The translations under genes and the position numbers were made by a program. From positions 9,134,001 through 9,198,000 of the forward strand of contig NC_087109.1 of assembly GCF_963855985.1 (NCBI RefSeq): a stretch of DNA of 64,000 nt. The letters are read 5' to 3'. Positions 25,520 to 56,601 of the stretch are shown piece by piece. Under the pieces are notes generated by a model. The model ran no database searches and was not told the origin of the DNA. It worked only from the letters and a program-made list of their open reading frames with translations. Source of the stretch: Ostrinia nubilalis. Taxonomy: Eukaryota; Arthropoda; Insecta; Lepidoptera; Crambidae. Within the stretch, counting starts at the first letter, position 1; the number at the start of each line of letters is the position of its first letter.

Positions 25520-26574
25520 AATTTAACACTTGAAATTTGGAAGGGACGTAGCTTAGGTACCGTAGAGGTGCATTAAGAAAGGAATACCCGAAATTCCCAC
25601 GGGCACGGGAATCAGCCGGAAAATCCTTTTGTATGAAAAATCTAAACCATGTAAGATAGACGCTCGAAATTTGGCATGCAGGTACCTTAGTAAACTCAAA
25701 GCTTAGTTACAAGAGAATATTGCAAACTTCCCACGGGAACGGGAGTTAGCGGGAAAAAACATTTGTATGAAAAAATCTAAACCACGTAAGATAGACGCTT
25801 GGAATTTGGCATGCAGGTACCTTAGTAAACTCAAAGCTTAATTATAAGAGGATATTGAAAAATTCCCACGAGAACAGGAGTTAGCGGGAAAAAACAGTTG
25901 TATGAAAAAATCTAAACCACGTAAGATAGACGCTTGAAATTTGGCATGCAGGTACCTTAGTAAACTCAAAGCTTAGTTACAAGAGGATATTGCAAAATTC
26001 CCACGAGAACGGGAGTTAGCGGGAAAAAACATTTGTATGAAAAAATCTAAACCACGTTAAAAGGAGAAACTGACTGACTTAGTGACATATCAACGCACAG
26101 CCTAAACGGCTAAACGTATGCACTTGAAATTTGGAAGGGACGTAGCTTAGGTACCGTAAAGGTGCACTAAGAAAGGAATTCCCGAAATTCCCACGGGAAC
26201 GGGAATTAGCGGGAAATCCCTTGGTATGAAAAATCTAAACCGCTTAAGTTAGACGCTTGAAATTTGGCATGTAGGTACCTTAGTAAACTGAAAGCTTAGG
26301 TACAACAAGGAATTCCCGAAATTCCCACGGCAACGGGAATTATCGGGAAAATCCTTTTGTATGAAAAATCTAAACCGCTTAAGTTAGACGCTTGAAATTT
26401 GGCATGCAGGTACCTTAGTAAACTTAAAGCTTAGTTACAACAGGATATTGCAAAATTCCCACGGGAACGGGAGTTAGCGGTAAAAAACATTTGTATGAAA
26501 AAATCTAAACCGCGTAAGATAGATGAAGGGGGTAAAACGGGATCCTCGCGTACGAAGTCGCGGGCGGCCGCTAG
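25520..26574 (+). mobile_element. Helitron-like unit(s) with internal ~130-bp tandem repeats, plus orientation
   Basis: The 3' end reads GAAGTCGCGGGCGGCCGCTAG before a T at 26575, a Helitron hairpin and CTAG end. The body is built of repeated units carrying TTGGCATGCAGGTACCTTAG, TTCCCACGGGAACGGGAGTT and GTATGAAAAAATCTAAACC. An internal 5'-like start (AAAAGGAGAAACTGACTGAC) lies near 26058, so 26050-26574 may be one unit and 25520-26050 part of another. Confidence 0.7.
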
Positions 26575-26737
26575 TACATTGTGAGTCTTAAGAAAGTGCA
26601 CATACGAAAATAGGCGAAACTACTAAACCTATTTTTATCGACAAAAAAAGTAAAAAAATATGTGAGTTTTTACTATTTATGGACATTTTCTGGGTATTTT
26701 ATGTACCTATTTTTTTAGTGTCGCCTGTTATTAAGCA

Positions 26738-27396
26738 CTAACGGCCGCCCGCGACTTCGTACGCGTGGATCCCGTTTTACCCCTTCATCTATCTTACGCG
26801 GTTTAGATTTTTTCATACAAATGGTTTTTCCCGCTAACTCCCGTTCCCGTGGGAATTTTGGAAAATCCTGTTGTAACTAAGCTTTAAGTTTACTAAGGTA
26901 CCTCCATGCCAAATTTCAAGCGTCTAACTTAAGCGGTTTAGATTTTTCATACAAAAGGAGTTTCCCGCTAATTCCCGTTCCCGTAGTAATTTCGGGAATT
27001 CCTTGTTGTAACTAAGCTTTAAGTTTACTAAGGTACCTACATGGCAAATTTGAAGCGTCTAACTTAAGCGGTATACTTTTTTCATACAAAAGTATTTTCC
27101 AGCTAATTCCCGTTCCCGTGGGAATTTCAGGAATTCCTTGTTGTAACTAAGCTTTAAGTTTACCAATGTACCTACATGCCAAATTTCAAGCGTCTGACTT
27201 AAGCGGTTTAGATTTTTCATACAAAAGGATTTTCCCGCTAATTCCCGTTCCCTTGGGAATTTCGGTAATTCCTTTCTTAGTGCACCTCTACGGTATTTAA
27301 GCTACGTCCCTTCCTTTCGAGTGCCTACGTTTAGCCGTTTAGGCTGTGCGTTGATCTGTCACTAAGCCAGTCAGTTTCTCCTTTTATATATTTAGA
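26738..27396 (-). mobile_element. Helitron-like unit, minus orientation, facing the previous one
   Basis: On the minus strand it starts TCTAAATATATAAAAGGAGA and runs through the same repeated units. It ends at 26738 with the hairpin and GCGGCCGTTAG, where CTAG has mutated to TTAG. With 25520-26574 it forms a large palindrome; the two 3' ends are only 163 bp apart. Confidence 0.7.
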
Positions 27397-31307: not shown

Positions 31308-31508
31308 TTATCTGAAAATGACGTTGCTGGTATGCGATCCGCGATGCGAGCTGTTGTCGCGCGCTGTGTGACGTCGGAACGGGTTCCAAGATGGCGCCCG
31401 TCTCGCCGAAGAGCGCGCGGTGACCGCTGTGGAACCGCTGGACGCTGTCGACGCTGCTGATACGGATCCCTGGTTGGAGTTCGACTGCCGAGGGGTCTCT
31501 GGGGACGC
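31308..31508 (-). CDS. Rhp: Rhophilin exon 15 (Ser-rich C-terminus and stop)
   Basis: It codes for [20 protein letters not shown], then [20 protein letters not shown], ending SNVIFR and TAA at 31308-31310. The acceptor is TTTTCCAG. The tail is Ser/Ala/Arg-rich and carries no domain. The exact last residues could change if a further downstream splice is used, but the frame is clean to the stop. Confidence 0.8.
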   Translation of the reverse strand, partial: ASPETPRQSNSNQGSVSAASTASSGSTAVTARSSARRAPSWNPFRRHTARDNSSHRGSHTSNVIFR

Positions 31509-34500
31509 CTGGAAAACGTTTGAAATACAAGTATTAGAGCGCTTTCACATTTAGATGTCAGAAGCGCGACAGCAGCTTTTTTATAATGTGAAGGCAGGCA
31601 TCATCTGTCATGGGCTCTTTACCGACTATATTAGTTTTTTAGGTGTAGCGCTTATCTCACGCCCGTATTCACAAACATTACTATGAGGTCTCACAGTGCA
31701 CGTGGACGCACAGGGTGACACATGAAACAATCACAGAGCTCTATTCATCGCTGTGCGTTCGAATTGCTGCTTCACTTAAGCAAGAATTGTTTGTGAATAC
31801 GGGCGTCAGTCAGTGCCTGAGGAATAGGATGGGAGCGGCACGGGAGGGGTGATGTTGACATAATTATGACGTGATAGAGCAGGGTTTCCCAATTTTTTTT
31901 TGCCAAGGAACCCTAATTTATTATACTTTTCCTAGCGGAACCCCCGTACTACTCCGCCCGCACGCCCTGCCCCTCCCTTGTGCGTAAACAAGTCGGTGCG
32001 CGCGAACAACGTCGGTCACTAAACGTGGGATAATATTTTATACGGAACCCTTGCGGCCTTTCCACGGAACCCCAGGGTTCCGCGGACCACCTTTCGGGAA
32101 CCGCTGTGATAGAGCATACAAATCAGTCTCGCTGATTGTTTAAGACCTTTACAACCTAGCACCCATAACACAACATAAGTTGCTTACTTTGGGGCTAAGT
32201 AGATGGCGCTGTGTGGAATTGTCCAAAAATATTTTTTTATGATGATGTTACCTTCAACAAGCTCTTATCCATGGGCGTCGCGAGCCGCATGGTGAGGGTG
32301 TCTCCAGCCTGCTGTATGAGTCGCACCACCTCCTCATGGGAGCTCCACTTGACATCCTTTTCGCCTATGGAGATTATGAAGTCGCCTTCACGCATACCGC
32401 CAATCTGGAACGAAAGTCTTTATTAGCTCTTAATAAGGTACAGATTTGTTTAAAAAAATAATTTAGAAACATGTGTGAAGGTGCTAAGCCTTAGTAGTTA
32501 TACACTAGCGGCCGCCCGCGACTTCGTACGCGTGGATCCCGTTTTACCCCCTTAGGGGTGGAGTTTCGTAAAATTCAGTCCGATCCGTCCAGTGGTTTGG
32601 GCTGTGCGTTGATAGATCACTATGTCAGTCAGTCAGTCAGTCACATATATTTAGATTTCTTGTCAAACCAAGAACGGTTTGATTTCTGCATTGTAAAGGA
32701 ATGTAATTTGCTGCCAATACTTAACTGCCTTTCCAGTTTTCCATCTATTATCACAATGCAGTTTTGTTTTTATTATTGCTTAATTTTTTGGGCAAATTGA
32801 CTAACACCCGTTCATACACGATGCAACATTGTAAGCTATAATTTATACTTAACGATCTTTATCAAACTGAATTTCATGAGAGCAAAAACTAAACAAAAAT
32901 CATTCCTGTAGGCCTAGGATGCGTGCTGCGATAAACGTTTATTGAGGCATTTTATCGATATTGCGCGATAAACCCATACATTTGTCGTATGGTCGATAAG
33001 ATTTTATCTAGCCAGATTGAAACTACTGACTCGTACATCAGCCAAAGAGTTGGGCTCCACCGCCGCCATGGCGAAAAAGTTGTCTTAAGGGATTTTTTTA
33101 TTTATTGGTATCAAGCTGCCCTTTACTTGACTTATGCCCGTTTTCACCATCAATTCCTAATTTTTAAGTGACCCCTATGGTAGGTATATTCATAGGGTCA
33201 CTTAAAAATATGGGATTGATGGTAAAAACGGGCATTAATGTCCTATGTCCCCTAGATGGGGCAGACGTCCACAACAGTCCTCCATCGCGTTCGGAATTGA
33301 GCTTCGCGTTTGATCTCGCTTGCTCTAAAGGCTGGATTTACACGTATTAAGTAGCTAAGTAGGTAACTTTAACTTAATTTTAAGTGATTAATTGCGTGTA
33401 AACACACAATTTAGTAGTAAATTGCAAGTTAGGTAGTTGGCAACTAAATAAGTAGTAAGTACTGTTTACATGCAATTTAATCGCGTAAAATAAAGTTACG
33501 TGTAAATTAGCCTTAAGTCTTGCCGATTTTCTTCTTCTTATCTGCTACAGTGCGCCGCCAAGTTTGCGTTTTGGTGCCCTATTGTATTGAGGGGTGAGGC
33601 TTTGGGTCTACTACTTATATTGCGCGCGGCAGGTCGCCCATGCGCTGGACTGACCAGTTCAAAACCGCACTCAATAGTCCACTCTACGAGTGCACAAGAA
33701 AGGCTGCAGTGCGGGAGGATACAATACAAAAATACAAAATTGTTGATTCAGAATCAGGTTTAAAAAAACAGGGTTTCGATTGGGGTTTTCTTTTAAGTAT
33801 AAGTAGATACTTGTGTTAGAAAACCCCGCTCTCCAATGATTTACATTATGAAATTATACAGCTAGGAAATACCATTGCATATCTATTGACTTATTTTAGT
33901 AGGAACTGAAAAAAAGTATGTGTGTGTGTGTATGTGTGTGTGTGTGCGTGCGTATGTGTGCGCGCGTGTGTGTGTGTGTGTGTGTATGTGTGTGTGTGGT
34001 TATTATGTAGTAGTAATTTTGCTAATTTATTTAATGAAAAGTTAAGTTAAGTTATGTGATTGCATATTATTTAATTAATATTAATTTTAGGTTAATTTCG
34101 TTTAGGGAAGCCTATATTGTAAATTATATTAGATTTAATTTTTTAACTTTACCTTAGTTTATTTCATGCAAACATGTTTCAGTCTTGTCATAGCTCCAAG
34201 TTTTCAGCAAAGTCGTAAGATGCATTTTGCAAGCATAGTGATTCATAGGGTAAGTAGATGTCAAAGATGAGGAATGGCGACGGATTGTGAGGCTTGTCAC
34301 CGGACCTGGTGTGACGACCACGACCACTCTAGCAAGAATGTAGCGACGAAGAGAAGTAACTACTTACATCAGCCAAGGAGTTGGGCTCCACGGCTGCTAT
34401 GACGACGGGCGCGTCGCCCCTCACTGAGAATCCGAAGCCCTCGTCGTCCGTCTTCGAGTTCGACACGTTGTATTCGCTGGCCACCCGACGCAGGTCGCCT

Positions 34501-37500
34501 TTTCGCCTCTCCCTCCCATTTTTGGTAGGCTGGAAAGAGATAGGTTTTATACGAAAATTATTGAAGTTAGCCGAGAGTAAGCCCTTTGACTCGGCGACAG
34601 CAATCTGTTATCGGATGTTGAGTTTGCTCGAGGCGAAGTGAAATGCGTGTCTACCTACACTATCTTACTTCGGCCAACTTCGCGAGTAGTGTAGCTGAGG
34701 TATTAAAGAATTGAAGACTCTACTCAAACCGTCTACACGTCTGTCTAATGCAGGCCAAATCCTTCATTAGCAACTCGTAAAATTAAGAAGATTGCGGTCC
34801 GTCAAGACTCTAAATTACCTGATAATTAAGTTATGGGGAGTGTAGGTCGATTTCTCTTGAATCATTTTAAGGGAAAAAATAGGTACACAGGAATGCTCTT
34901 AAAACGTGTATTTAAAGAATCCTTTTTTTAAAACATTACAGTCAAACAAAAGAGCGTAAAAATTGCTCTGAATTACACTTACCTTGCCATTAACATCGCC
35001 ATTCTTCACACCGTTCTCCTTAACGAAGGTATCATTCACATTATTCCTATACGAATTGGACTCGTAATCCAGCACTTTCGGATGATACTCGTAATTATTA
35101 TTGTTATTGTAACTGTTGATATAAACCCCGTTTTGTTTCATCACCCTGTGCAGTTTCTTCTTGTCGTATTCTTCTGTGTATTTCTCGTCGCTTCTGATTA
35201 TTTGGTTGTAGTACGTGCTATTGTCTTCTGATCTATCCCGTTTCTCGCTCTTTCTTGATTTGTCTTCTGTGTATTCGTCGCGGCCGTTCCGTATTCTTCT
35301 GGATCCTGAAATTAAAAGTTTATGTAAAAAATACAAAGACATTTCACGATATTTTATGAAGTCAAAAATCCACTCGGCATGGGGCACACTGAAAACCAGC
35401 GTCGTGGCCTTCCTCGCCGAGGGCCACGGCATATGCTGAGTACGGTTCCATCACAGTAAATACATTTAAATACTGTGGTCCCATTGCGATGGGCATCGCT
35501 GTTGCGACAGGGTGAAACTGCTCAGTTCACTTTTTTTTCCTTGTAATATTATTCATAATTAGGAAAGTGATGTTCATCGTAATAAATGTAAGTTTCTTTT
35601 TTTCTTTCTTTCAAAATGTATGAAAAACTGGTTAGTCACGAGTACCATGAGTAAAGTCGTGTTACAACACAATCTAATTATCGCGGTCAAGCTGTAGATC
35701 CTGGCTACACAGGAGTTGCAGCACTTAGATGAGTGTTTTTAGTATGGTTACCTCGCTTATCTTGCTTTTGAACAGGTCGTCCTAGGTGCTGGGCGAAGTC
35801 GGGAGGAGTGAGTGCAGTCGGGAGGAGTGAGTGCAGTCGGGAGGGGTGAGTGCAGTCGGGAGGGGTGAACCCAGTCGGGAAGGTCGTACGCAGTTGGGAG
35901 GGGTGAACGCAGTTGGGAGATGTGAACGCAGTCGGGGTGAACGCAGTCGGAAGAGGTCAACGCAGTCGGGAGGAGTGAACGCAGTCCGGAGGGGTGAACG
36001 CAGTCGGTAAAGGTAACAGCAGTTGAGAGGGGTAAACGAAGTTCGGAGGTGTGAACGCAGTCAGGAGGGGTGAGCGCAGTCGGGAGGTGTGAACGCAGTC
36101 GGCAGGGGTGAACGCAGTCGGGAGTGAATACAGTCGGGCGTGAACGCAGTCGGCAGGGATGAGCGCAGTCGGGAGCGAACGCAGTAAGGGGGTGAACGCA
36201 GTCGGGAGCGAACGCAGTCGGGAGTGAACGCAGTCGGCAGGGGTGAATGCAGTCGAGAGGAGTGAACGCAGTCGTGAGGGGTTAACGCAGTCGAGAAAGG
36301 TGAACGCAGTGGGGAGGGGTGAATGAAATCAGTAAAGGTGAACGCAGTCGGGAGATGTGAACGCAGTCGGGTGAACGCAATCGTTTGAACGCAGTCCGGT
36401 GACGCAGTCCGGTGAACGCAGTCGGGGGTGAACGCTACAATTGAGCGTAGATGAGTGTTTTTAGTATGGTTACCTCGCTTGTCCTGCTTCTGTTACCTGC
36501 GTGTTGTAGTTACCTCGCTTGTCCTGCTTCTGTTACCTAAGTGTTGTAGTTACCTCGCTTGTCCTGCTTCTGTTACCTGCGTGTTGTAGTTACCTCGCTT
36601 GTCCTGCTTCTGTTACCTAAGTGTTGTAGTTACCTCGCTTGTCCTGCTTCTGTTACCTGCGTGTTGTAGTTACCTCGCTTGTCCTGCTTCTGTTAGCTAA
36701 GTGTTGTGGTTACCTCGCTTGTCCTGCTTCTGTTACCTGCGTGTTGTAGTTACCTCGCTTGTCCTGCTTCTGTTACCTGCGTGTTGTAGTTACCTCGCTT
36801 GTCCTGCTTCTGTTACCTGCGTGTTGTAGTTACCTCGCTTGTCCTGCTTCTGTTACCTGCGTGTTGTAGTTACCTCGCTTGTCCTGCTTCTGTTACCTAA
36901 GTGTTGTAGTTACCTCGCTTGTCCTGCTTCTGTTACCTGCGTGTTGTAGTTACCTCGCTTGTCCTGCTTCTGTTACCTGCGTGTTGTAGTTACCTCGCTT
37001 GTCCTGCTTCTGTTACCTAAGTGTTGTAGTTACCTCGCTTGTCCTGCTTCTGTTACCTAAATGTTGTAGTTACCTCGCTTGTCCTGCTTCTGTTACCTAA
37101 GTGTTGTAGTTACCTCGCTTGTCCTGCTTCTGTTACCTGCGTGTTGTAGTTACCTCGCTTGTCCTGCTTCTGTTACCTGCGTGTTGTAGTTACCTCGCTT
37201 GTCCTGCTTCTGTTACCTGCGTGTTGTAGTTACCTCGCTTGTCCTGCTTCTGTTACCTAAGTGTTGTAGTTACCTCGCTTGTCCTGCTTCTGTTACCTAA
37301 ATGTTGTAGTTACCTCGCTTGTCCTGCTTCTGTTACCTAAGTGTTGTAGTTACCTCGCTTGTCCTGCTTCTGTTACCTAAGTGTTGTAGTTACCTCGCTT
37401 GTCCTGCTTCTGTTACCTAAGTGTTGTAGTTACCTCGCTTGTCCTGCTTCTGTTACCTGCGTGTTGTAGTTACCTCGCTTGTCTTGCTTCTGTTACCTAA

Positions 37501-40500
37501 GTGTTGTAGTTACCTCGCTTGTCCTGCTTCTGTTACCTGCGTGTTGTAGTTACCTCGCTTGTCCTGCTTCTGTTACCTAAGTGTTGTAGTTACCTCGCTT
37601 GTCCTGCTTCTGTTACCTGCGTGTTGTAGTTACCTCGCTTGTCCTGCTTCTGTTACCTGCGTGTTGTAGTTACCTCGCTTGTCCTGCTTCTGTTACCTAA
37701 GTGTTGTAGTTACCTCGCTTGTCCTGCTTCTGTTACCTGCGTGTTGTAGTTACCTCGCTTGTCCTGCTTCTGTTACCTAAGTGTTGTGGTTACCTCGCTT
37801 GTCCTGCTTCTGTTACCTGCGTGTTGTAGTTACCTCGCTTGTAACTACAACACGCAGGTAACAGAAGGGAGGGGTGAACGCAGTCGAAGGGGTAAACGCA
37901 GTCGGGAGGGATGAACGCAGTTGAAAGGGGTGAACGCAGTCGGGAGGGTGTGAACGCAGTCGAGGGGTGAACGCAGTTGGAGGGTGAACGCAGTCAGGAG
38001 GGGTAAACGCAGTTGGGTGGGGTGAACGCAGTCGGGAGGGTGAACGCAGGCGGGAGGAGTGAACGCAGTTCGAAAGGGTGAACGCAGTCGGTAAAGGTGA
38101 AAGCAGTTGAGAGGGGTAAACGCAGTCGGGAGTGAACGCAGTCGGCAGAGGTGAACGCAGTCGGCAGGGGTGAACGCAGTCGGAAGTGTGAGCGTTAGCA
38201 ACGCTATTATCAAACGTAGATGAGTGTTTTAGTATGGTTACCTCGCTAATCTTGCTTCTGGAGTAGAACCAACCGGGAGTACGACCCATTGTATGAGTGT
38301 AGATGAGTGTTAGCGGTACAAACACGAAACTGTATGACGCTCATATTCGATGCTTGTTTATGTGAAGCAGCAAATCGAACGCACAGTGTTGGATAGAGGT
38401 CTGTGATTGGTTCATGTGTCCCCCTGTGCGTCCACGCGCACTGTGAGACCTCATAGTAATGTTTGTGAATACGGGCGTGAGTGTTGTAGTTACCTCGCTT
38501 GTCCTGCTTCTGCAGCTGCAGCAGCCGCGGCGCGCTCCAGTGCCGCTTGGCCGAGAACACCGCGATGGGCCCGAGCGGCCGGAACAGCTCGTCCACGCGG
38601 TGCTGGGCGAAGTCCGGAGGAGTCAGCGCTAGCTGGAACTTCGATGATGCTGCGGAGGAAAATAATAATGTTGTAATTATTGATGGGATTGCTAGTACCT
38701 TAATTATGAGTTTCTGATATTTCGGCACTGTTGCAAGCGCCATGACAACTGTGGAAACTGGCGGGCAGACATTTATTTATTCAGGAAAACAAGGGTTTTA
38801 CAGTGTGTAATAATGACATAAGATAGGCAACAAGTAAACCACTTATAGGTTCCCACAGGAAAAAAACAATTTAAAAAATTAGTGAGCCTTTGCACCAGAG
38901 TTACTACATACTACCTCGCCACAGCAATGCTTAGTACAAATGATGTCGATCTACCCTCTTTCGCAGTCTTAAAACAATATAATAATGTTGTGGTTAAATA
39001 AGAGCACTGGACAAAGTTAAAAAAGTGACAGAACTTGTGATTTAGACATCATTTCGCTCTGGCGTTATTTTTGTAAGTATTGTGAAGCGATTTCGAAATA
39101 AAAACTGTCGCGACTGTTACTTTTTATAGGCCCACTGATTTCATTCCCTGCCATATTTATTGAGGTGATCGACACTATTTACAAATAATCGAGGATTGTC
39201 GGTCAGTTAGAGAAGGCGGTCATTCAAATAGCGACTTTATCCTCTTATGCATAAGGTTAAGGTACAGTCGCGGAATGAAAAGGTTCGTCACCTTAGTGTC
39301 GGTTTTCGCTTGCACTAGGTACTGTAAGAGTCAAACCTGCCAACCTAACAGTGCAAGAAACAGTGCTGCTAACATTGAAATAAATATGACGTTTGATAAC
39401 GAATAAGGTTTTGCTTGTTTAATTTTCTATCCCATGCAATGTTACAAAATGTAGTTTTTTTTTAATTTAATAGAAATAATAATGGCAGGTTGAACCAACA
39501 AGAAGGTTTTAGTTTATCAATCATAATAATCTTCTTGACAAGATACATCATCAAACAACTTTGATCTGAATAATTTTGAACTTTACTGACGAACAGTTAA
39601 AGATTATTTTCTCTAACTCGAGATTATTCTGTAACATAGTTTCAAAAGGTAATATGTGCTCGCAATTCGTTGAAGGAATCAATTTTAAAACTGACGAACC
39701 TTTTCATTCCGTGACTGTACAACGCATTATTCCGACGATTCAACATCTTCGTGAAGAAGATCTATACCGGTCATTCAAATAACGACTCTACTCTATCCTC
39801 ATACGTATAAGACTACTAACGCAGTGCGGCGCGACTGACATCTCGGCGAGGTTAAAGTTTGTCATTCAAAATTCGACTCTATTCTCATACACATAAGGTA
39901 CACTTCGGTCCACCTAGTAGGAGGCCTGCCCACGCTACGTCTTCCAGCCCGTGGTCGCCACTCGAGAACTTTTCTGCCCCAACGGCCATCGTCTCTATGA
40001 GCTATGTGCCCCGCCCACTGCCACTTGATTTTAGCAATTCTGCGAGCTATGTCGGTTACTTTGGTTCTCCTGCGGATCTCCTCATTTCTGATTCGATCAC
40101 GCAGGGAATCTCCTACTAGGTGGACCGACGATCTGGTAAAGGTCGCGGGAAGAGCCTGGATGCGGGCAGCGCAGGACCGTTCATTGTGGAAAACCTTGGG
40201 GGAGGCCTTTGTCCAGCAGTGGACGTCATTTGGCTGAAACGATAAGGTACACTTACGCAGTATGTGCGGCGCGTCGATGAGCTCCGCGAAGTCTGGCTCG
40301 CGGCCGTCCAGCGCCCGCGCCGCCGCCGCGCGTTCCAACGCCGCCCGCACCGCTCGTGATAACGCCTCTTTGCCGCGGAGTTCCCTGAAAGCAGATAGAT
40401 TAATCATCATCATCATCATCATTTCAGCCATAGGACGTCCACTGCTGAACAAAGGTCTCCCCCAATGATTTACATAATGACCGGTTATTAGTAGCGTTTA

Positions 40501-43500
40501 CATCCACTTTACAGAAATGTTTTAGGAAAGTTATACGACTTTGTTATTCCAAAAGACAGCGCAGATTTTGGATTACAGTTTCGTTGATGAGTACAGTGTA
40601 TCACAATTCACAACAGATAAAAATTTAATTTTTCTTTACTATCATTATAGGTCCTTTACAGGGCAAAGTGGTAAACAACCACTTCGGGACAACATACAGG
40701 ATCGGGTTGAGAAGAATTTAAAAAAAGTTATGCAATAAGTGTGAACTAGCCAGGCAAAGTCCATTCACTATCCATTATTTCTGAAGCAGTGTACACGTAC
40801 ACTCCATTGTGGATGAAAGTTCTTCTTATCCAGAACAAGGCAGGTATGTGACTGAAATGGAACCTGATGTTCAGTGAGATGCAGTCTAGGATGGTAGGGT
40901 GCATTCTGCCCTATTCACTCTCGCCTTGAAGAGGCCTGATTATAGTGCTCGGGAAAGACAGTAGCAACAAATTCCAGTCCCTAGTTTTTCGCATTATAAA
41001 AGATGGATAGTGTTGAATTACCTGCACATTCTCTGCAGCCTCAGCGCTTCCTCATACAAGGCCAGTGCTTCCACCAGGTGAGCTCGTCCCAGCGCCATGT
41101 AGTCCAACTCCTGGTCCTTCAGCGAGGGAGGGTTGGCTGAGCCTGGAATGTTGAAATAAATATTACAACCAGCCTAGAAAGCATAGTATTTCTCTATGGT
41201 TTGAGCCCTAAGAGCTTGTTCATACTTGTCAGGTGACGGGCCGGATCTTAACCAGGCATCGGCGGTTCTGTTCACACCACTCCAGTCGAGCTGGTTGGTG
41301 CCATTTTCACGGAAGCGACTATATACGATGGACGTCGACGAATCTCTTGTTGAATTGTAACACCTACTGATGTAAATCCATTTTAGCAAAATATTATAAT
41401 TTGAATTTGCGATAATGGCCCCGACAACCGACAATTGATGTGGATAGCGTTATAGTTACTCCTATGGCGTAGTACACTTTGCCGAACTTGATCGAATCAG
41501 ATAGTGTAAACACGTTCAGTTCGTTTTGCCGTGCGTTGCCCGTACTTTTGTGCACGTTTTTGCGCAAGTTTCTATCAAGTTCGCGCATAGTGTAACTGCG
41601 CCAATCGGCGAGCGAGATCCGAAACGTTTTTTTTTTTTTCAAAATTTGGAAAACACCCGACATTTGTTTTCGGCGCCTACAAAGAAATGTCGGGTGTTTT
41701 GTCTTGAATCTTTTAATATATTATTAGGCTGGGTTGCACCATCTTACTTTAACCTTAACAAAGGTCAATAATATGTCATAATCCATATAAAAACACCGGT
41801 TATCGTTATAGTTACGGTCAAAGCTTCTTCTCAGCACTTGCCAAATGTTGGTCTCGAAGCGCTGGTAGGGTAAAAAGATTATGAGACATGTAGAGGCTCC
41901 TTAAGAGCAATATGACGATTTGTAAGAACTATTTATTAGTCTAAACAAATAAAGAAATTTTGACTTTGACTTTGACTTTTGAAATTTTGACTTTGACTTT
42001 GACTTTGAAAGTTAGGTGGTGCAACTCAGCGTTAGTTTTCACTCACCGTTGTCGACGTTTCTATCCCCGCCTGGCGAGTACAGAGCCGCGAGCCGTTCCC
42101 GCGCCCTGACACCAGATGGCGCGTTCAGCAAACCAGTTGCACAGTATTGGTGTGCTAGCGCTGAAATAAGAATAATAAATCATTTATTTACTGACTAAAA
42201 AAATATCTGGGTCATCATTATCAGGGCATGTAATGTCCAACGAAATTAATCGAAGAACACAGGACGACTTCGAAGTTGAGGATCGAATTCCCACCTGTGG
42301 AAAACGGATGACCGGTCACAAAAAAAAGGTTTAGGCATGACCGGGTTGGGGAGACCTGGTGTTCGCATATTTCTCCCTCAGTCGCCTCCAGTGAAATCCA
42401 CGGGATGACCGGGGTGGTTCTATCTACACTAATGGAATCACACGGCTGTACCGGCTGTTTTGAATATAGAAGAGAAATATAAAAATAAATCTTTAGAAAT
42501 ATTATGTAGGTACCTTTATAATATTCAGTCTTGACGTGGACCAGGGAGACCCACGAGTATGGCACGTAGTTGAACACACCCTCGGATTGCATCTGGAAAG
42601 CATAATAAATAAAGACGTCAAATTGGATTGGAAAACTTTTAATATTCTTGGACATTGTAAAATTGGGAGCGTATAGATATTAACGCTCGACTCTGTGAGA
42701 TGGAGGTTGCTACGTAGTAGTCTGCAGTCTGTATAAGGGGGGGGGGGGGGGATCTGCCTATATGGGGTATTCTGTCTATGGAAGAGGGAGGGTTTTGCCA
42801 AAGTGGGGGTTCTGTCTATGTAGATGCCACACTGGCGAATTACATGCGGTTTCAAAGCGGAGCGGCGATGCGCCGCGGATGCGCAACGTTTTCGCGAGTC
42901 TCCGCTCAGCTTTGAAACCGCTTGTAATCCGCCAGTGTGCCAACTGGCAAGGCCCTAAGGGTTCTACCTAGTGGGGGGAGAATTCTGCCTATGTGGGGGA
43001 GGGAGGATTCTGTCTAGGTGGAGGTGTCAAGGTTTCTGCCTTTATGCAAGGTTTCTTTCTATGTTTCTACCTTCTCGTAGAGCTGCGTGTAGGTGTGCGC
43101 CAGCTGCGCGCTCTCCTGCGCCAGGTCGAGGCACATGTCGAGGTCGTCTTATGTCTCGCTTCGTAATTATGGAAGGAGGGTTCTTTCTATGAAGGGGAGG
43201 GTTCTTTCTTTGAGGGTGGATGGTTCTGCCTTTTTGCCTATGTGGGAGGTTCTTTTGCCTAGGGCGATGTCACTATACAGGGTCCTTCTAAACTAGCTAC
43301 ATTCCTTTTAATGGGGGCATCTATACGGTACACTGAACAAGTTCACCAAATTTGAGTATGTGTTTTATAATGATTTTACAAAGTTACATTTTCTAACAAA
43401 AATAAAAATTCATTTCGTCTTACATAATGGAACATGCTGTATTTTTTACTCACACAACAAAGCTGTAGTGTATTCATTCTGCACAGGAACACGAGACACA

Positions 43501-46500
43501 ACACACACAACGCTCACTACCACTGCACACTTTTTTGTTGTTTACACTCACGTCATAACAACTCACAGCAGTCGTCACAGCTGATAGCCGATTAAGCTGA
43601 TCGACTGATTGGGCGAGCTATCACTTCAATGTTGCAGGCCTACTCTCATATCGTTGTCTATCCTTATTATCTTATGTTAATCACAGTAAAACGAACTCAC
43701 GATACCATCGAAAAATCAACCAGCAAAGGCCATGATTTTTAAGGCGCGTTTTAGTAAATTTATTTGCATTTGTGCATCTGTGCGTCATAGTTCACTTCAC
43801 GAGCACTACAAAACGCACCTTCACACAAGAAAGCTAGTCAAAAACTGAATTAAATCAAAGCGCACGCGCCGACAAATGCCGACAAGCCGCACGCCTTTTG
43901 TTGACACAAAGACGCCGACGCCGCCAAAGCAAGAGCCGAAAAGTTGGCATAAGCGTACAGTCGACAAAAAAGAAACTTATTTGTTTATTATTTTATCTGC
44001 TTGCTTTCGATTTCAATTGATTCGAATCTAAATTATGGTGTTGAGTATTTCATGGTAAAATATCCTATAACAGATAATAATTAAAAATTAATCGAACTTA
44101 TTGTTTTGTGAAGGTAATTCAATGGCCTAGTCAAATATTTAGAAACATGAAATTAGACTATTGAAGCAAATAAAACTCTTCAATTTGTTTGTATTGATAT
44201 TCCATTTATCCTAAATCAAAGTCCATTCTTAAATTAATCGTTAATGTCATCATTTCTATTACAATAGAAAAGTAGATGAGGTAGGTAGGTACCTAATTAG
44301 TTAAATAAAATTTCCGAATCATTTCCGTTCCAACTTGGTATTTATTTATGACCTATCTTATGTACCTGTGATTTAACAATAAACACAATTTTAATTTGAA
44401 TAGTAAAAAAAAGTTTGTTGCATTTCTTAATTTTATTTTGGTGAGTGTACATTGCGCTAGCCGGCGGCCGGCGGCACGTGTCAAAAGGCGGCGGCACGTG
44501 TCTAAAAGTTCGTTTGCTGCGCGCCGGCTAGTGTTGTACGATACGACACTCGAGTCTTGGAATCTTACTTATTAAAAGTTTGAAGAAAATAAAATAGCTA
44601 TGAATTAAGACTGTGTGTTTATTATTTTATTGGACCGTTTTAACTTTTTGATTACGAAAATCGTCAGTCTTTAGATGGATACTTCTGATTCGATTATTTG
44701 CGTTTAATGCAATTTTATTGATATTACATTTGTATTGTGCGATTTATTTTATTTTCAATTAGTAAGGATATAACATACGGATGATGATATGAAATCACTC
44801 ATTATTGCCTATTAGTATACACCAACTAAGTTCATGTCATGATTCAGTCTAGCTCAAAGAACTTAAAATACTCGAAAGGACTCGGAAGACTCAATTATTC
44901 CCTTATTCATGTGACTAACGAGTCCTAGTCTTAAAAATAAACTCAAGTCTCAAAATAAAGACTTTAAAGACTCGAGGTTCTTACTTACAACACTAGCGCG
45001 GTCGGCTATTGTGAGGGACGGCTGTCTTTGATACCACCGACTCCGCCACGCATAAATAAGGATGTCAACTCCAAAATTCTTTCTAATCTTAATAATAATA
45101 AAACTATCATTATTTACTTTTATAATTTTTTTTTTGTTTCTACGATGATTTTAATGATTATTATTTCAGTTTAAAATTGATAGTTGGGAACAATTATTTA
45201 CTTATTTACTTCGGAATACTAAAGCCTGCCGATAATCACAGGTAGATAATTCGATAGCGTTTAGTTTCTGCTATGATCGAGTCAATTACGAATCACATTT
45301 TTAATTTGCTAAGGGGATATTAAGCGATTAAAATTAACATGAAAAATGTGCCTGCTTTATCGTAATAATAACCGTAATTCTAAATTTCATAGTCATGGTA
45401 ACTATCCCATTTGTGTATGGCATAAAAATAAGTCATTGATTTCGGCAACTAACTTTTTTGCTTCGTTTCGTTGCTACGTCTGAAATAAAAGATTTTTACA
45501 AGCGCAAAAGTATTTTAACGAACTTTTGAATAAACATCATTCCATTAAGGCCACTAAATAAGTACTTACCACATAAGATTTTTTTATGTTACCAAAAATA
45601 AATAAACTTTAATTTTCTGCTTAATTTAATTCCTTAAATAACTAGTAGTAGCCCTAGAATAGCTTGTGTGGCGCCCGGTCCGTCGTCCGGCGGCACTCTT
45701 GTGTTCGCGGCCAGTGGCCCAACGGCAGCACAAGCGCAATGGCGGCCATTACGTAAGCTCGTGTGCGTGCGGATTTTTGTCAGTGTAGTAGTGAATCAGC
45801 TGAACAGGGTGTTGTATTGGGTTGATAAGAAATGAAGTTGTTTCCTTAATTATCTCGGAAACTAGCCTGAATTTTTGGCTCAAACTTTGGGAACGTATTC
45901 AGTGTGACGTATACATGCTCCCATTAAACGGAACGTAGCTGATTTAGAAGGACCCTATATAAGGGGGAAGGTTCTGCCTCTGTTTGGGGGAGGGTCCTGC
46001 TTATGGTCCTACCTTCTCGTAGAGCTGCGTGTAGGTGTGCGCCAGCTGCGCGCTCTCCTGCGCCAGGTCGAGGCACATGTCGAGGTCGTCGTGCAGCTTG
46101 CGCTTGCGCCCTACTTACTATCTATAGAGGAGTGTTCTGCCTATGTAGGAGAAGGTTCCTATGTGGGGTGAGGGTTCCTTTATGGGGAGATGGTTAAGGT
46201 TCTGTCTATGTGGCAGAGAGAGAGTTTTGCCAATTTGGGGGTTCTGTCAATGTAGATTAAGGGGTTTACCTAGTGAAGGGAGAATTCTGCCTATGTGAGG
46301 AGAGAGAGGATTTGTCTAGCTGGGGGAGGGAGGATTCTGTCTAGATGGGGGAGGGAGGATTCTGTCTAGGTGGGGGAGGGAGGATTCTGTCTAGATGGGG
46401 GAGGGAGGATTCTGTCTAGGTGGGGGAGGGAGGATTCTGTCGAGATGGGGGAGGGAGGATTCTGTCTAGATGGAGGAGGGAGGATTCTGTCTAGGTGGGG

Positions 46501-49500
46501 GAGGGAGGATTCTGTCTAGTTGGGGGAGGGAGGGTTCTGGCTAGATGGGGGAGGGAGGATTCTGTTTAGATGGGGGAAAGAAGATTCTGTCTAGGTGGGG
46601 GAGAGAGGGTTCTGGCTAGGTGGGGGAGGGAGGGTTCTGGCTAGGTGGGGGAGGGAGGGTTCTGGCTAGGTGGGGGAGGGAGGGTTCTGGCTAGGTGGGG
46701 GAGGGAGGGTTCTGGCTAGGTGGGGGAGGGAGGGTTCTGGCTAGGTGGGGGAGGGTTCTGCCTATATGGGGGGAGGGTTCTGCTTTATGTGGGGGAAGAA
46801 TTCTGCTTACGCATGGGGAAAGGCTTTCCTTATATGTGGGGGGAAGGGGGAGGGTCCTACCTTCTCGTAGAGCTGCGTGTAGGTGTGCGCCAGCTGCGCG
46901 CTCTCCTGCGCCAGGTCGAGGCACATGTCGAGGTCGTCGCGCAGCTCGCGCTCCCGCCCTACTTAGTATCTATAGAGGAGTGTTCTGTCTATGTAGGAAA
47001 AGGTTTCTATGTGGGGTGAGCTTTTCTATGTTCGATGAGGGTTACGGTTCTGTCTTTGTGGGGAAGGTTCTGTCTTTGAGGGTGGATGGTTCTGCCTAGT
47101 TAAGGGAGGGTTATGTCTATGAAGGAGAGGGTTCTATCTTTGAGGGGGGGATGGTTCTGCTTAGTTACGGGAGGGTTCTGCCTTTTTGTTGTGTGTTGTT
47201 TCTGATTTTTTGTGAAGGGTGTCTATATGGGAGGTTCTTTTGCCTAAAGGGAGTGTCTATCTTGCGGGGAAGGTTCTGCCTTTTCTACCTTCTCATATAG
47301 CTGCGTGTAGGTGTGCGCCAGCTGCGCGCTCTCCTGCGCCAGGTCGAGGCACATGTCGAGGTCGTCGCACGCTTCGTATTTATGGAGGGAGGGTACTGTC
47401 TATGAAAGTGGGATGGTTATGCCTAGTTAGATGAGGGTTCTGCATTTTTGTGGGGGGAAGATTATGCTTATGGGAGGTTCTTTTGCCTAGGGGGGGAGTT
47501 TATGTAGGGGGAACGAGGAGGGTCCTACCTTCTCGTAGAGCTGCGTGTAGGTGTGCGCCAGCTGCGCGCTCTCCTGCGCCAGGTCGAGGCACATGTCGTG
47601 GTCGTCGCGCAGCTCTCGCTTTATGAGGGGAGGCTTATGTCGCGATTCGTATTTAGGACGGTTCTTTCTATGGAGGGCAGGGTTCTTTGAGGGAGGATGG
47701 TTCTGCCTAGTTGAGGGAGGATTCTGCTAATGGGGGGTGTCTACGTGGGAGGTTCTTTTGCCTAGGGGGTTTCTATTTTAGGGGGTGGTTGCCTATCCTA
47801 CCTTCTCGTAGAGCTGCGTGTAAGTGTGCGCCAGCTGCGCGCTCTCCTGCGCCAGGTCGAGGCACATGTCGAGGTCGTCGCGCAGCTCGCGCACGCCTCG
47901 CGCTACTTACTATCTATAGAGGAGTGTTCTGCCTATGTAGGAGAAGATTTCCATGTGGGGACAGGGTTCCTATGCGGGAGAGAGTTAGGGTTCTGTCTAT
48001 TTGGGGAAGATTCTGCCTTTGTGGCGTAGGGTTCTGCCATTTGTCCTATTTTGGGGGAGGGTTCTGCTATTACGGGGGTTCTACCTGTGTGGGGGAGGAT
48101 TCTGCCTATATGGGGAAGGGTTCTTGCCTCTAAATGCACCCATATAGAGTGGGTAAGGGTTCTGCCTACATGAGGTGTAGGTGTGCGCCAGCTGCGCGCT
48201 CTAATGCGCGAGGTCGAGGCACATATCAAAGTCGTCGTCTATCTTCGAGGGGAGATGGTTCTGCCTATGTTGGGAGAGGGTTCTGCCTATACATGAGAGG
48301 GGAGGGTCCTACCTTCTCGTAGAGCTGCGTGTAGGTGTGCGCCAGCTGCGCGCTCTCCTGCGCCAGGTCGAGGCACATGTCGAGGTCGTCGCGCAGCTCG
48401 CGCTCGCGCCCGCACGCCTCGCGCGCTTGTAGTTGCAGCTTCTCGAACAGGCACTCGCGGGCTTGGGCCTGGAACATATAGATAATAATTTTAACACAGA
48501 AAGCCGGGATTTACTACGATAAGATCGCTTCAAATGTGCCGCTTTAGTAAGAGTAGCGAGAACTGGACAAGATCCAGTAAAGATATTAACAAGATGAGAA
48601 GATTCGTTATAAGTGCAACCAGTACCAACTAGGCGTCCACAGCCAGGTCCATAGACGGTACTTTGGTTAAGTTCTCATAAAGGTTCTTATCATCATCATT
48701 TCAGCCACAAGACTTCCTCAACTGAACATACTCGTAGGTCTCCTCCGATTATTATTTCCAGATTGAACTTCGTTCGTCTGTTACAGAAAAATTACGTCCA
48801 CTGGATAAAGGTTTTACCCAAGGATTTTAACAACAGCTGCTCCTGCGCTTCCTGCATCCAGGTACTTCCCACGACCTTCACCAGATCGTCGGTCAGGCCT
48901 GTCAAGGACCACTTGCCACTCGAGAACTTTTCTGCCCCAACGGTTATCAGCTCTACGAGTTATGTGCCCCTATGTATCTCAGGGTGTCCATAGATAAGAT
49001 CGGGAATCTCTTACCGTCATGAGCGCCCCCAGTACCAGCAAGGTGTCCGCAGCCAGGTCCACAGACGGCGCGTTGGTGAAGTTCTCGTGTATGTAACTCA
49101 AGGAGTAGTGCGTCTACCACGTCGTCCAGGCTTGTTTTGGTTCAAAGGGAGCCCCTAAGTATGATGAGGAGACTCTTACCGTCATGAGGGTCCTCAGTAC
49201 CAACAAGGTCCATGTATCTCATCATCATCATGTCTGTCACAGTCTAGGGGAGCCCCTAAGTATGATGAGGAGACTCTTACCGTCATGAGCGCCCCCAGTA
49301 CCAACAAGGTGTCCGCAGCCAGGTCCACAGACGGCGCGTTGGTGAAGTTCTCGTGGATGTAACTCAAGGAGTGTAGCGCGTCTACCGCGCCGTCCAGGCC
49401 TGTGTTCGATCCTAGGGAAGCCCCTAAGTATGATGAGGAGACTCTTACCCTTATGGGCGCCTCCAGTACGCGCCAGGTCTACAGACGGTGCGTTGGTGAA

Positions 49501-52500
49501 GTTCTCGTGTATGTAACTCAAGGTGTAGCGCGTCTACCGCACCGTCCAGGCTAGTTTTGGTTCTAGGGAAGCCCCTAAGTATGATGAGGAGTCTCTAACC
49601 GTCATGAGCGCCCCCAGTACCAGCAAGGTGTCCGCAGCCAGGTCCACAGACGGCGCGTTGGTGAAGTTCTCGTGGATGTAACTCAAGGTGTAGCGCGTCT
49701 ACCACGCCGTCTAGGCCTGTGTTTTGGTTCTAGGGGAGCCCTTAAGTATAATGAGGAGACTCTTACCGTCATGAGCGCCCCCAGTACCAGCAAGGTGTCC
49801 GCAGCCAGGTCCACAGACGGCGCGTTGGTGAAGTTCTCGTGTATGTAACTCAAGGAGTAGTGCGTCTACCACACCGTCTAGGCTTGTGTTATGGTCCAAA
49901 GGGAGCCCCTAAGTATGATGAGGAGTCTCTTACCGTCATGAGCGCCCCCAGTACCAGCAAGGTGTCCGCAGCCAGGTCCACAGACGGCGCGTTGGTGAAG
50001 TTCTCGTGGATATACCGCAGCGTGCCGGCGGCGCGGAGCAGCGCATCCACCGCGCCGTCCAGGCCTGCACATGTGTTTCGGTCCTGTAACCATCAAAGTT
50101 TATGAGAAATTTCGTGATTATGGCGCTTGCAACAGTGCTGAAATATCGGAAACTCGAAATTAAGGTTCAGCAACAGTGTTAACTGCCCCTTGCCGGTCAT
50201 GTCGTCTCGTTCTATCGCAAAGAATCACCATTTGATGAGAGCGAGAGCAAAAACGGTAATGGATAGTAATTATTCAGAAACGCTTTTATCTGCGATATTG
50301 TGCGCTAGGATTTTGATCCTGTACAAACCAACCAACCTACGCACCGCGCTGGAATGCGGCTCTCCCTCCGACTTATTCGCACATCGTACCAGAACGTCGA
50401 TGTGACCTCACGGGTACCAGGTGCGCAGTTAACTCGACCGGGTTTTTTGCAAGTATCCTTCTTCGAGTCGAGATACTATCTCTGCTGTAAGTCAACTAAA
50501 GCCTGGTCCGTGAGCACGTAGAATCCCGTCCAATGACCCCAAGCTGCCCATCCTTGTCGCTCGCACGTAATTATGTTGCTGTCGCACTTGCACACTCACT
50601 GCGGGCGCGCGTTGCACAGTCGCGACAGCAATATAATTACGCGCGAACGATAAGGATGGGTAGCTTGGGGTCATTGGACGGGATTCTACGTGACAGGCTT
50701 TAACAGTTTTACTTTCGCAGATTTTTAGATCACATCGAAGAACCATGGTATAGGTACGCTACTATTGTGCATTGAATTTGAAAACTATACTTAACCACAG
50801 AATAATAATAAGTACTAGACATTTAATTTGAAATAAATGTTTACCTGTTTAGCGCCAATTTGTGTGTAGATTCCAGCCATGTTGAACAGGACACAAGCTT
50901 TCTCGAAAGCCACTGTTCTTTGACACGATGGGACTCCTGGTAAAAAGAAATAGAAATACATTATGTAAAAACTTTATTGACATAAAAGCATAAAATATGT
51001 TAACTAGGTACGAGTATAATTAAGATTTTTCATTTGTATTATTATCCCTTTTTAAGGAACACGTCGTCGTAATACGTCTGTTAGCATAATTTTCTACGTT
51101 TTCTTAAACATTTCCACAAAATGTACTATTGGTTCCACATTCACAAGTTTAGAACACAGAACACAAAAAAATATACAAAAAATAAATATAAAAAGGAATA
51201 CCTACTTACAGGAATAAAAAAAAAATTCAATAATAAAGGAAAATTAATAAAATAACAATAAAATATACCTGTTAACGAATCGAACCACTCGAAGTAGACG
51301 CCGAGGGATCGGTCCGGGGGGAAGAACCGCCTCTCGATGTAGTACAGCTGGTTGTAGTACTTGAACAGCAACGCCACACCCGCGGTGGAGCGGACTGGCG
51401 TTCGCATAGCCTGGAATAAAACCATACTAAGTATCATAAAAGCCCACTGAGTCCACCATGGTCCAATGTACTCGCGACGCCTCTAACCGTCAGAAATGGA
51501 AGCACATCGCCAGGAGAGCTACCCTCGGAGATAACGTCACCCCACCATGTACCTCGTCAGCTCAACCACGACCACTCTGACAAGAGTGCCCGACTAAGAA
51601 GAAGAATTATCATAAATGCAAGAGCTTTTCATGCTTTAAACCACTGAACCTATTCGGATGTAGGTATATTATACAGATTGACTACAAAAACATTATCCAT
51701 TTTTTTTAAATAAGCTCTATAGAACAATTTAAAACAATACTTTATCTTCATTATTTTTATATTCTTCAGTATTTTTCGCGAAAAAAAAATGAAAATCTAA
51801 TTCGCGGGTGGGTGCCCAAGCCCATATCTTAATTTTTAAAGGTTAAGGCTTATTTTCGCGCACCATTATGTCTATTATGCTTTACAGTTAGCAGCTGTGT
51901 ATACGTATTTTTCTATGAACGAAGTAAATTATCCACGTGTACCCATTTTGAAACCGCGCGCTGCCATAGAGGAATTCCTCTAATTAAATATGAAAAAAAA
52001 AAAAAGATTTCTTTACGTAAATCAAAAAAGAAGAAGAGGAGAGAAGAAGTTAAAAAGATTCATCATATCCATTCCATCAAGTCTGTTAAGGAAACTTTGG
52101 ATGGCGCTTGGAAGCTGACAGCGCATAACTGATTGTCGTAGAAACCCTTGGGGAAGGCCTTTCCAGCAAAGTGTCCAGGGTCCACAGCCATGTCCACTGC
52201 TGAACATAGGCCTACCTCAATAATTTCCTCATTGGCCGGTTGGTAGCAACGCATCCAGCGTCTTCTTGATTAAAATTAAAGTTGGCATCTTTACCTGTCT
52301 CATATCCATGAAGTCTGATATGGCATCCTCATACGTGGCCGGGTCCTCGCTGTAGTGCTCCATGATGAAGTCCTTGAACGGCTCCCTGAAGTCCACCTCC
52401 TTGGTCTCCTTCAGGCCCAGGGGGATCATCGGCATCACGCATTCTTTGCTGCAGACAAAGGTTAAACATATGTAAGTCATAAGATCTATTAACAAAAAAA

Positions 52501-55500: not shown

Positions 55501-56601
55501 CTTTAACTGTTCGTTAGTAAAGTTCAAAATTATTCAGATCAATGTTGTTTGACGATTTATCTTGTCAAGAAGGTTATTATGATTGATAAACTAAAACCTT
55601 CTTGTTGGTTCAATCTGCCATTATTATTTCAAAAACTATTGTCAATTGGTCAATGTCATCATTGCATTGCACTGATGGGATAGAAAAATAAACAAGCAAA
55701 ACCTTATTCGTTAGCAAACGTCATATTTATTTAAATGTTAGTAGCACTGTTTCTTGCACTGTTATGTTGGCAGGTTTGACTCTTACAGTACCTACTTAGT
55801 ACAAGCGAAAACCGACACTAAGGTGACGAACCTTTTCATTCCGCGACTGTACATAACAGCAAAAGTTACAAGGCAAGGGCTGTTTCTTAAACGCTTCGGC
55901 CCATTATGTGCCATTTCGTTTTTGTAAGCCCGCCACAGAAGATTGCAGTGAGGGGTGCGTGTCACTTGATATTAATTTATTTAAGTTACCTACATCAACA
56001 ATAACAGCAGGAGGGGCGCCTGGATGCAGGCGGCGCAGGACCGGTCTTTATGGAAATCCTTGGGCGAGGCCTTCGTCCAGCAGTGGACAAAGGCATCATT
56101 CGGCTATAACGACGACGACGACATCAACAGTTACAAGGCAAGGACTGCGCTTTAAACGCTGCTGCCCATTATGTGCCATTTCGTTTTTGTAAGCCCGCCA
56201 CAGTGGCTTGTAGTGAGGGGTGCGTGTCACTTGATATCTTGGCATTGGTCTATTACATAATATTTATATTTTATTTATTTAATTTCACAGATTTTAGGCC
56301 TTATTTAATTAATATAAATAAGCAAGTTTCTGAGTTCGTTTCTTTACAGAAAATTTTAAAACATGTTTACGCCCGTATTCACAAAAATTACTATGAGGTC
56401 TCACAGTGCGCGTGAACGCACAGGGTGACACACGAACCAATCACAGAGTTCTATTCAACGCTGTGCGTTCGATTTGCTGCTTCACTTAAGCATGCACCGT
56501 TTGTGAATACGGGCGTTAGAAACCAATGATTGCATGAATATAATGGCAATTTGCCATATAAGAAACATAATCCCAACTAATATTATAAATGCGAAAGTAA
56601 C

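Follow-up and report, generated by a model that had tools for sequence, protein, structure and literature searches.

The rhophilin gene on the minus strand of a 64,000-nucleotide (nt) window of Ostrinia nubilalis DNA (NCBI RefSeq assembly GCF_963855985.1, contig NC_087109.1, positions 9,134,001 to 9,198,000) carries, in four of its introns, copies of the 3′ part of the exon that precedes the intron, each joined to the GT of the splice donor. In two of these introns the exonic part of the better copies has stayed almost identical to the exon while sequence duplicated along with it has diverged. We propose that tandem duplications across the donors, followed by array growth and gene conversion and filtered by splicing, gave rise to this pattern, a reading that we hold at a probability of about 0.58.

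Each exon, together with 200-nt flanks, was compared with the whole window by blastn at E-values of up to 0.01. As a sequence-only reading of this stretch had claimed, exons 5, 6, 11 and 13 matched the following intron on the same strand, where their 3′ part is copied together with the GT donor. For the remaining 10 exons no copy was listed, and in the window none was found upstream of any exon. Two inverted rows were not counted, one matching exon 10 to its own surroundings (64%) and one matching exon 6 to one of its own copies (68%, E 0.002). Exons 5 and 6 have seven copies each, exon 11 has 35 donor junctions and two outlying copies, and exon 13 has one, so the earlier counts (about 7, 7, 34 and 1) were correct within one. 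The GT is present in six of seven exon-5 copies, in six of seven exon-6 copies (the seventh is degenerate and its donor end is gone), at all 35 junctions of the exon-11 array and in the exon-13 copy; the motifs that located the exon-6 and exon-11 junctions themselves contain GT, yet the 40-nt array runs without a missing step.

The intronic side of the acceptor was undetectable in any copy; for exon 5, 194 of 1000 shuffles equalled the observed score when intron bases only were used. With 10 exon bases added, an initial shuffle test had seemed to show a copied exon-5 acceptor (31 against a maximum of 27), a signal that was gone with intron bases only. The earlier claim that the copies are always the 3′ part and never the acceptor side thus holds for the acceptor. 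It does not hold for the rest of the exon, since 5′ halves of exons 5 and 11 also lie downstream: the diverged exon-5 half is still recognisable in the full intron-5 units (score 50 against a maximum of 30 in 40 shuffles), and the exon-11 half scores 66 in the downstream intron (maximum 35 of 40 shuffles).

The gene comprises 14 exons with GT..AG borders and a single open frame of 686 codons. Pfam assigned BRO1 (50-461) and PDZ (607-675) to the spliced product, and a match to HR1 fell just under the cut-off (29.5 vs 33.1 bits). The closest protein among the matches listed was P0001, rhophilin-2 isoform X1 of Ostrinia furnacalis, with a reported identity of 100% over 100% of the query; by eye, two residues differ. 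This O. furnacalis model corresponds to the same 14-exon splice with none of the intronic copies inserted. Compared at the level of protein, the introns join the same sequence as in P0001. P0001 has DRR at the end of exon 11; DKR stands there both in exon 11 of the window and in the consensus of the units of its array. A probable last rhophilin coding exon (..NVIFR) at ~31308-31508, outside the 14-exon model, matches the C-terminus of P0001.

The main unit of intron 5, of ~167 base pairs (bp), consists of the diverged 5′ half of the exon, the near-identical 3′ half, the GT donor and a spacer of ~34 bp; Tandem Repeats Finder (TRF) reported a period of 167 over 49472-50011. Across exon 5 and four of its seven copies, 1 of 70 tail sites is variable, compared with 14 of 34 spacer sites (p = 2e-7), or 6 of 34 when the spacer of the last copy is left out (p = 0.005). 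Among the four copies alone, the tail again has 1 variable site in 70 and the 5′ halves have 15 in 60 (p = 5e-5). Copies 3, 5 and 7, which show an internal deletion, a truncation and decay, were excluded from these tail counts and from the count of synonymous differences below. Three of the four full copies align with a 14-nt gap, which is a frameshift, and one with a 12-nt gap.

Near-identity is seen for exon 6 as well, with 464 of 468 positions in the final 78 nt of six of the seven copies matching the exon. Three copies share an upstream flank, in which 12 of 70 sites are variable (ungapped) against 1 of 78 in the core (p = 0.0007). The decayed copy was excluded from the identity, flank and synonymous counts, and the exon-6 ranges for the last of these were set by eye. 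The copies start at varying exon positions (~41 to 78), and six of the seven end at the donor. Related minisatellite filler begins ~8 nt beyond the true exon-6 donor. An insertion of ~2.7 kb with inverted ends (GGGTCCTTCTAAA..TAGCTAC / GTAGCTGATTTAGAAGGACCC, by eye) lies within the exon-6 copy array at 43262-45960; it is probably a DNA transposon that separates the last exon-6 copy from the rest.

Intron 11 holds the most regular array. Its 35 donor junctions stand at an exact spacing of 40 nt and it contains 68 AGGTAAC motifs, made up of 35 GAGGTAAC, 18 CAGGTAAC and 15 TAGGTAAC. The consensus of two further arrays with a 19-bp period, together ~960 bp long, agrees with exon-11 nt ~21-39 at 15 of 19 positions (by eye). 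The 40-bp array is bordered on one side by a perfect inverted repeat, which suggests strand switching while the array grew. A short element with inverted ends (CGCCCGTATTCACAAACATTACTATGAGGTCTCACAGTGC..) was seen by eye at 38317-38483, 31650-31808 and 56370-56515; the first of these lies directly behind the exon-11 donor. The TRF arrays (40-bp × 34.3, 19-bp × 31.4, 19-bp × 17.1 and 25-bp × 19.2) are head-to-tail repeats within the ~10-100 bp range of minisatellites.

The homogenised block stands beside co-duplicated but diverged flanks for exon 5 and for exon-6 family A, and for exons 5 and 6 the near-identical block ends at the exon end or a few nt from it. Of the 16 differences between copy and exon, 9 are synonymous, where ~25% would be expected (p = 0.007); such an excess should result if the changes took place in the exon or were taken over from it. 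The two oldest copies have decayed and contain one stop codon each (frame by eye). At the level of sequence, these patterns suggest exchange between the exonic part and the functional exon at a time when the flanks had already diverged. Refreshed tails next to fading 5′ halves would be part of the reason why the tails alone had stood out. The features described above are collected in the table.

Parent exons, copies and arrays in the rhophilin gene (positions in the window; strand as a sign, "." where none applies)
Feature	Position	Strand	Basis
Exon 5 (parent), 150 nt	49934..50083	-	splice borders, open frame
Intron-5 array of six copies of exon 5 (one of them shortened, another with an internal deletion)	48982..49933	-	blastn, alignment
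Degenerate exon-5 copy, donor lost, in-frame stop codon (frame by eye)	48605..48676	-	blastn, alignment
Exon 6 (parent), 156 nt	48313..48468	-	splice borders, open frame
Degenerate exon-6 copy, donor end lost, start approximate	48170..48237	-	blastn, alignment
Exon-6 tail copy with donor	47796..47896	-	98% over 101 nt (blastn)
Exon-6 tail copy with donor	47529..47620	-	blastn, junction table
Exon-6 tail copy with donor	47285..47368	-	97.6% over 84 nt (blastn)
Exon-6 tail copy with donor, final 78 nt as in exon	46861..46959	-	junction table
Densest 20-25-bp minisatellite filler around exon-6 copies	46277..46755	.	TRF, alignment
Exon-6 tail copy with donor, final 78 nt as in exon	46013..46111	-	junction table
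Exon-6 tail copy with donor, final 78 nt as in exon	43071..43148	-	junction table
Exon 11 (parent), 156 nt	38494..38649	-	splice borders, open frame
Diverged exon-11 tail copy with donor	38221..38275	-	blastn
19-bp array matching exon-11 nt ~21-39	37867..38191	.	TRF; comparison by eye
Perfect inverted repeat, 27-nt arms, 7-nt loop, at transcript-5′ edge of 40-bp array	37807..37867	.	by eye
Strict 40-bp array: 19 nt of exon-11 tail + GTAAC..	36469..37842	-	TRF, motif count
19-bp array matching exon-11 nt ~21-39, contiguous with exon-11 5′ copy	35797..36435	.	TRF; by eye
Exon-11 copy with internal deletion: nt ~12-68 joined to last ~18 nt, donor kept	35740..35823	-	blastn, alignment
Exon 13 (parent), 162 nt	34368..34529	-	splice borders, open frame
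Single exon-13 tail copy with GT	33034..33074	-	88% over 41 nt

The sequence-only reading had pointed to the rhophilin of related moths as a check. Run here on proteins, as a scan for internal repeats of at least 8 residues in 120 listed rhophilin proteins of 1133 hits, the check gave one case: of the 120, P0005 of Phthorimaea operculella has internal repeats, and this gene model repeats the tails of three exons. Phthorimaea belongs to a moth family other than that of Ostrinia. With exon borders taken from the Ostrinia gene and P0005 being a predicted gene model, the repeated pieces are the ends of exon 2 (38 residues), exon 8 (22) and exon 14 (26). All three are tails and none is a head, and the exons are other than those copied in Ostrinia. 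The 26-residue repeat of exon 14 is followed by a further pair of 16-residue tails, of which one is an exact copy and the other has two changes. In the extra exon-14 tails the exon-final lysine is followed by valine in two of three and by alanine in the third; valine is what a read-through GT donor would encode. Even if the model is wrong to place these pieces in the mRNA, the rhophilin DNA of Phthorimaea should hold the repeats, and exon-tail repetition thus recurs in the predicted rhophilin of a second moth. As a control we scanned the 26-29-p protease, a single gene, for which 120 of 339 hits were listed, one of them the query; none of the other 119, Phthorimaea's included, showed such repeats. 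A comparison of P0052 (Papilio machaon) and P0132 bears on the position of this protease: a single Papilio gene model joins rhophilin and the 26-29-p cysteine protease in one protein, and the genes for the two probably lie side by side.

A self-comparison of the Ostrinia gene gave nine local direct-repeat clusters. Four of them cover an exon and its donor and five contain no exon; an acceptor is included in none. When nine segments of an assumed unit length are placed at random, at least four touch an exon with a probability of 0.02, which bears out the earlier claim that four cases are unlikely by chance. The downstream position of the copies is no further evidence, because copies made by tandem duplication across a donor can only come to lie downstream of it. 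For donor against acceptor, four of four corresponds to p = 0.06 (one-sided), so that the donor bias inside this gene is weak when taken alone. Including Phthorimaea, seven of seven gives 0.008, a figure to which the second moth contributes through a gene model and after having been noticed. The length of each of the four parent exons is a multiple of 3, compared with 6 of the 14 exons overall (p = 0.015, in a test conceived after the lengths were seen). Such lengths are expected if early whole-exon copies were tolerable in frame.

Our preferred reading would begin with local tandem duplications that had one endpoint in or before an exon and the other in the start of the intron, and thus spanned the donor. 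The units of contiguous exon, donor and intron on the same strand and downstream, together with the exon-5 and exon-11 copies that reach the 5′ half, support such a start. The extra units would then be part of the intron, downstream of the true donor, and be spliced out with it, in keeping with the O. furnacalis model. Short-period slippage and unequal exchange may have enlarged the arrays, and repeated non-crossover exchange with the functional exon may have kept the exonic block of the better copies near-identical; 5′ halves, spacers and filler, not being overwritten, would decay. Copies with a working acceptor would be spliced in and removed by selection, leaving the donor-bearing tails. 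Transcription reaches the true donor before any copy of it, but reaches an acceptor copy before the true acceptor, and first-come splicing would tolerate donor copies better. Selection on splicing can therefore yield the same asymmetry between donor and acceptor, and a donor-specific copying mechanism is not needed for the pattern.

Several observations weigh against this reading. A whole-exon origin is not established: the exon-6 and exon-13 copies gave no significant trace of the exon 5′ half in the shuffle test, and in no copy was an acceptor detectable. In the exon-6 flank, 10 of the 12 variable sites fall in the distal 35 nt and only 2 in the proximal 35 nt. The frozen block stops near the exon end, a point beyond which tracts of DNA conversion would in many cases be expected to run on into the intron (P = 0.01 with constraint on the parent taken into account, from three related and thus non-independent exon-5 copies with copy 6 left out). 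In the 33 inner units of the 40-bp array (the first and last units were excluded), the 19 exonic columns show 1 change in 627 and the other columns 37 in 693; these 37 are mostly one two-state dinucleotide, and by columns the difference gives p = 0.19. In the exon-14 array of Phthorimaea, conservation is no higher in the exonic than in the intronic part (2 vs 0 residue changes in two full units), and the Ostrinia counterpart of the exon-2 case is 154 nt long, not a multiple of 3. Finally, the exon-14 3′ half scored above shuffles upstream in the Ostrinia gene, and if real this would be an upstream copy, contrary to the downstream-only pattern. This match and one of the exon-10 3′ half downstream (each 35 against 30, 40 shuffles) have gapped, weak alignments; with 84 tests one expects about two rows of this kind, and neither was counted.

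The best placed of the alternatives, though in our view unlikely, is a process of mutation linked to the 5′ splice site, in which breaks, template switching or repair linked to R-loops or splicing copies the tail and donor downstream. The sequence-only reading had suggested such a link to exon-donor junctions, and as a pattern the link holds, with the donor included in four of four clusters and tails in all three repeated exons of P0005; the inverted repeat that borders the 40-bp array also resembles strand switching. The mechanism itself is unestablished, because two of the cases, exons 5 and 11, extend into the 5′ half and the four donors alone do not reach beyond the p-value given above. 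Template-strand G-richness is the wrong sense for classical R-loops. In intron 6 the G-rich strand is the template, and an R-loop origin is thus not favoured.

We regard as slightly less probable still the broader idea that in moths the ends of exons, with their 5′ splice sites, are favoured as seeds for satellites that enlarge introns. Tails would be copied downstream repeatedly and kept identical up to the exon border by conversion from the functional exon, perhaps with a template of spliced RNA or complementary DNA (cDNA), and introns would come to contain dozens of 5′ splice-site copies, which might act as U1 decoys.

The place where the near-identical block ends also bears on a further alternative, conversion templated by cDNA or mRNA, in which copies of the spliced transcript overwrite the intronic tails. 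This would explain why the block of exons 5 and 6 stops at the exon end better than conversion of DNA does, though on a small sample. The units contain the GT and the start of the intron, however, and so derive from genomic DNA or unspliced RNA; next to exon 6, evolution of the filler by insertions and deletions hides any intronic tract, and the pattern is absent from the Phthorimaea array. We consider a cDNA template improbable. Much the same low weight goes to one-sided homology repair, in which minisatellite units on the donor side recombine with deeper units and synthesis into the exon ends variably. The filler that abuts the exon-6 donor and surrounds the copies fits this, as do the variable starts and common donor end of the exon-6 copies. 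By eye, however, the exon-5 and exon-13 copies lie outside such filler, and the shared flanks show that several exon-6 copies came from duplication of larger units.

It is very improbable that mis-mapped reads homogenised the exonic parts during assembly or polishing: identity is indeed limited to exon-like blocks of ~70-100 nt, but an ordinary read is longer than such a block and the flanks of the blocks are distinct, some copies have differences of their own, others have decayed, and the gene model of a second species has the same kind of repeat. Functional alternative exons are not favoured in view of the frameshifts, the stops and the lack of acceptors.

Our results suggest that recurrent local duplication and repeated re-copying reshape introns while the protein stays unchanged. 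If this is general, exons seed intronic arrays and keep exchanging sequence with them, and are not passive in the growth of introns. It would then bear on how introns lengthen and on how splicing copes when the real donor is followed by dozens of intact copies of itself. Gene prediction would be affected as well, since the Phthorimaea model joins such copies into the protein, rightly or wrongly. The asymmetry between donor and acceptor ends is directly testable. Elsewhere in the window, 135-bp arrays in both orientations (AAATTCCCACGRGAACGGGA..) lie at 25591-27274, outside the rhophilin coding exons.

Minisatellites, or variable number tandem repeats, undergo gene conversion, and the rhophilin arrays with periods of 40, 19, 167 and 20-25 bp resemble them in their homogenised units. 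They differ in having been seeded by coding sequence and in apparently still exchanging with a functional exon. Mutually exclusive exon arrays such as that of Dscam also hold tandem exon copies within one intron, each with its own acceptor and donor. In rhophilin, by contrast, the donors are kept and acceptors are undetectable, three of the four full exon-5 copies are frameshifted, and old copies carry stops. Among the literature matches listed we found nothing on intronic arrays of exon tails, which is a weak negative. Intron gain by tandem genomic duplication at AGGT, as set out in PMC3443670, shares the duplicated AG|GT within an exon-derived repeat, of which the exon-11 array offers many examples. 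In rhophilin, however, the intron appears to have been enlarged, the protein is unchanged and there is no sign of a new intron. Local duplications that include parts of exons are frequent: according to PMC2891723, which cites the figure, 624 of 1901 Drosophila duplications contain some exonic sequence and no whole gene. The rhophilin copies resemble this partial exon tandem duplication in being local and including exon parts. They differ in that they lie in apparently existing introns, always behind the donor, are amplified and keep a near-identical exonic part. We therefore class the rhophilin case as a new form of partial exon tandem duplication.

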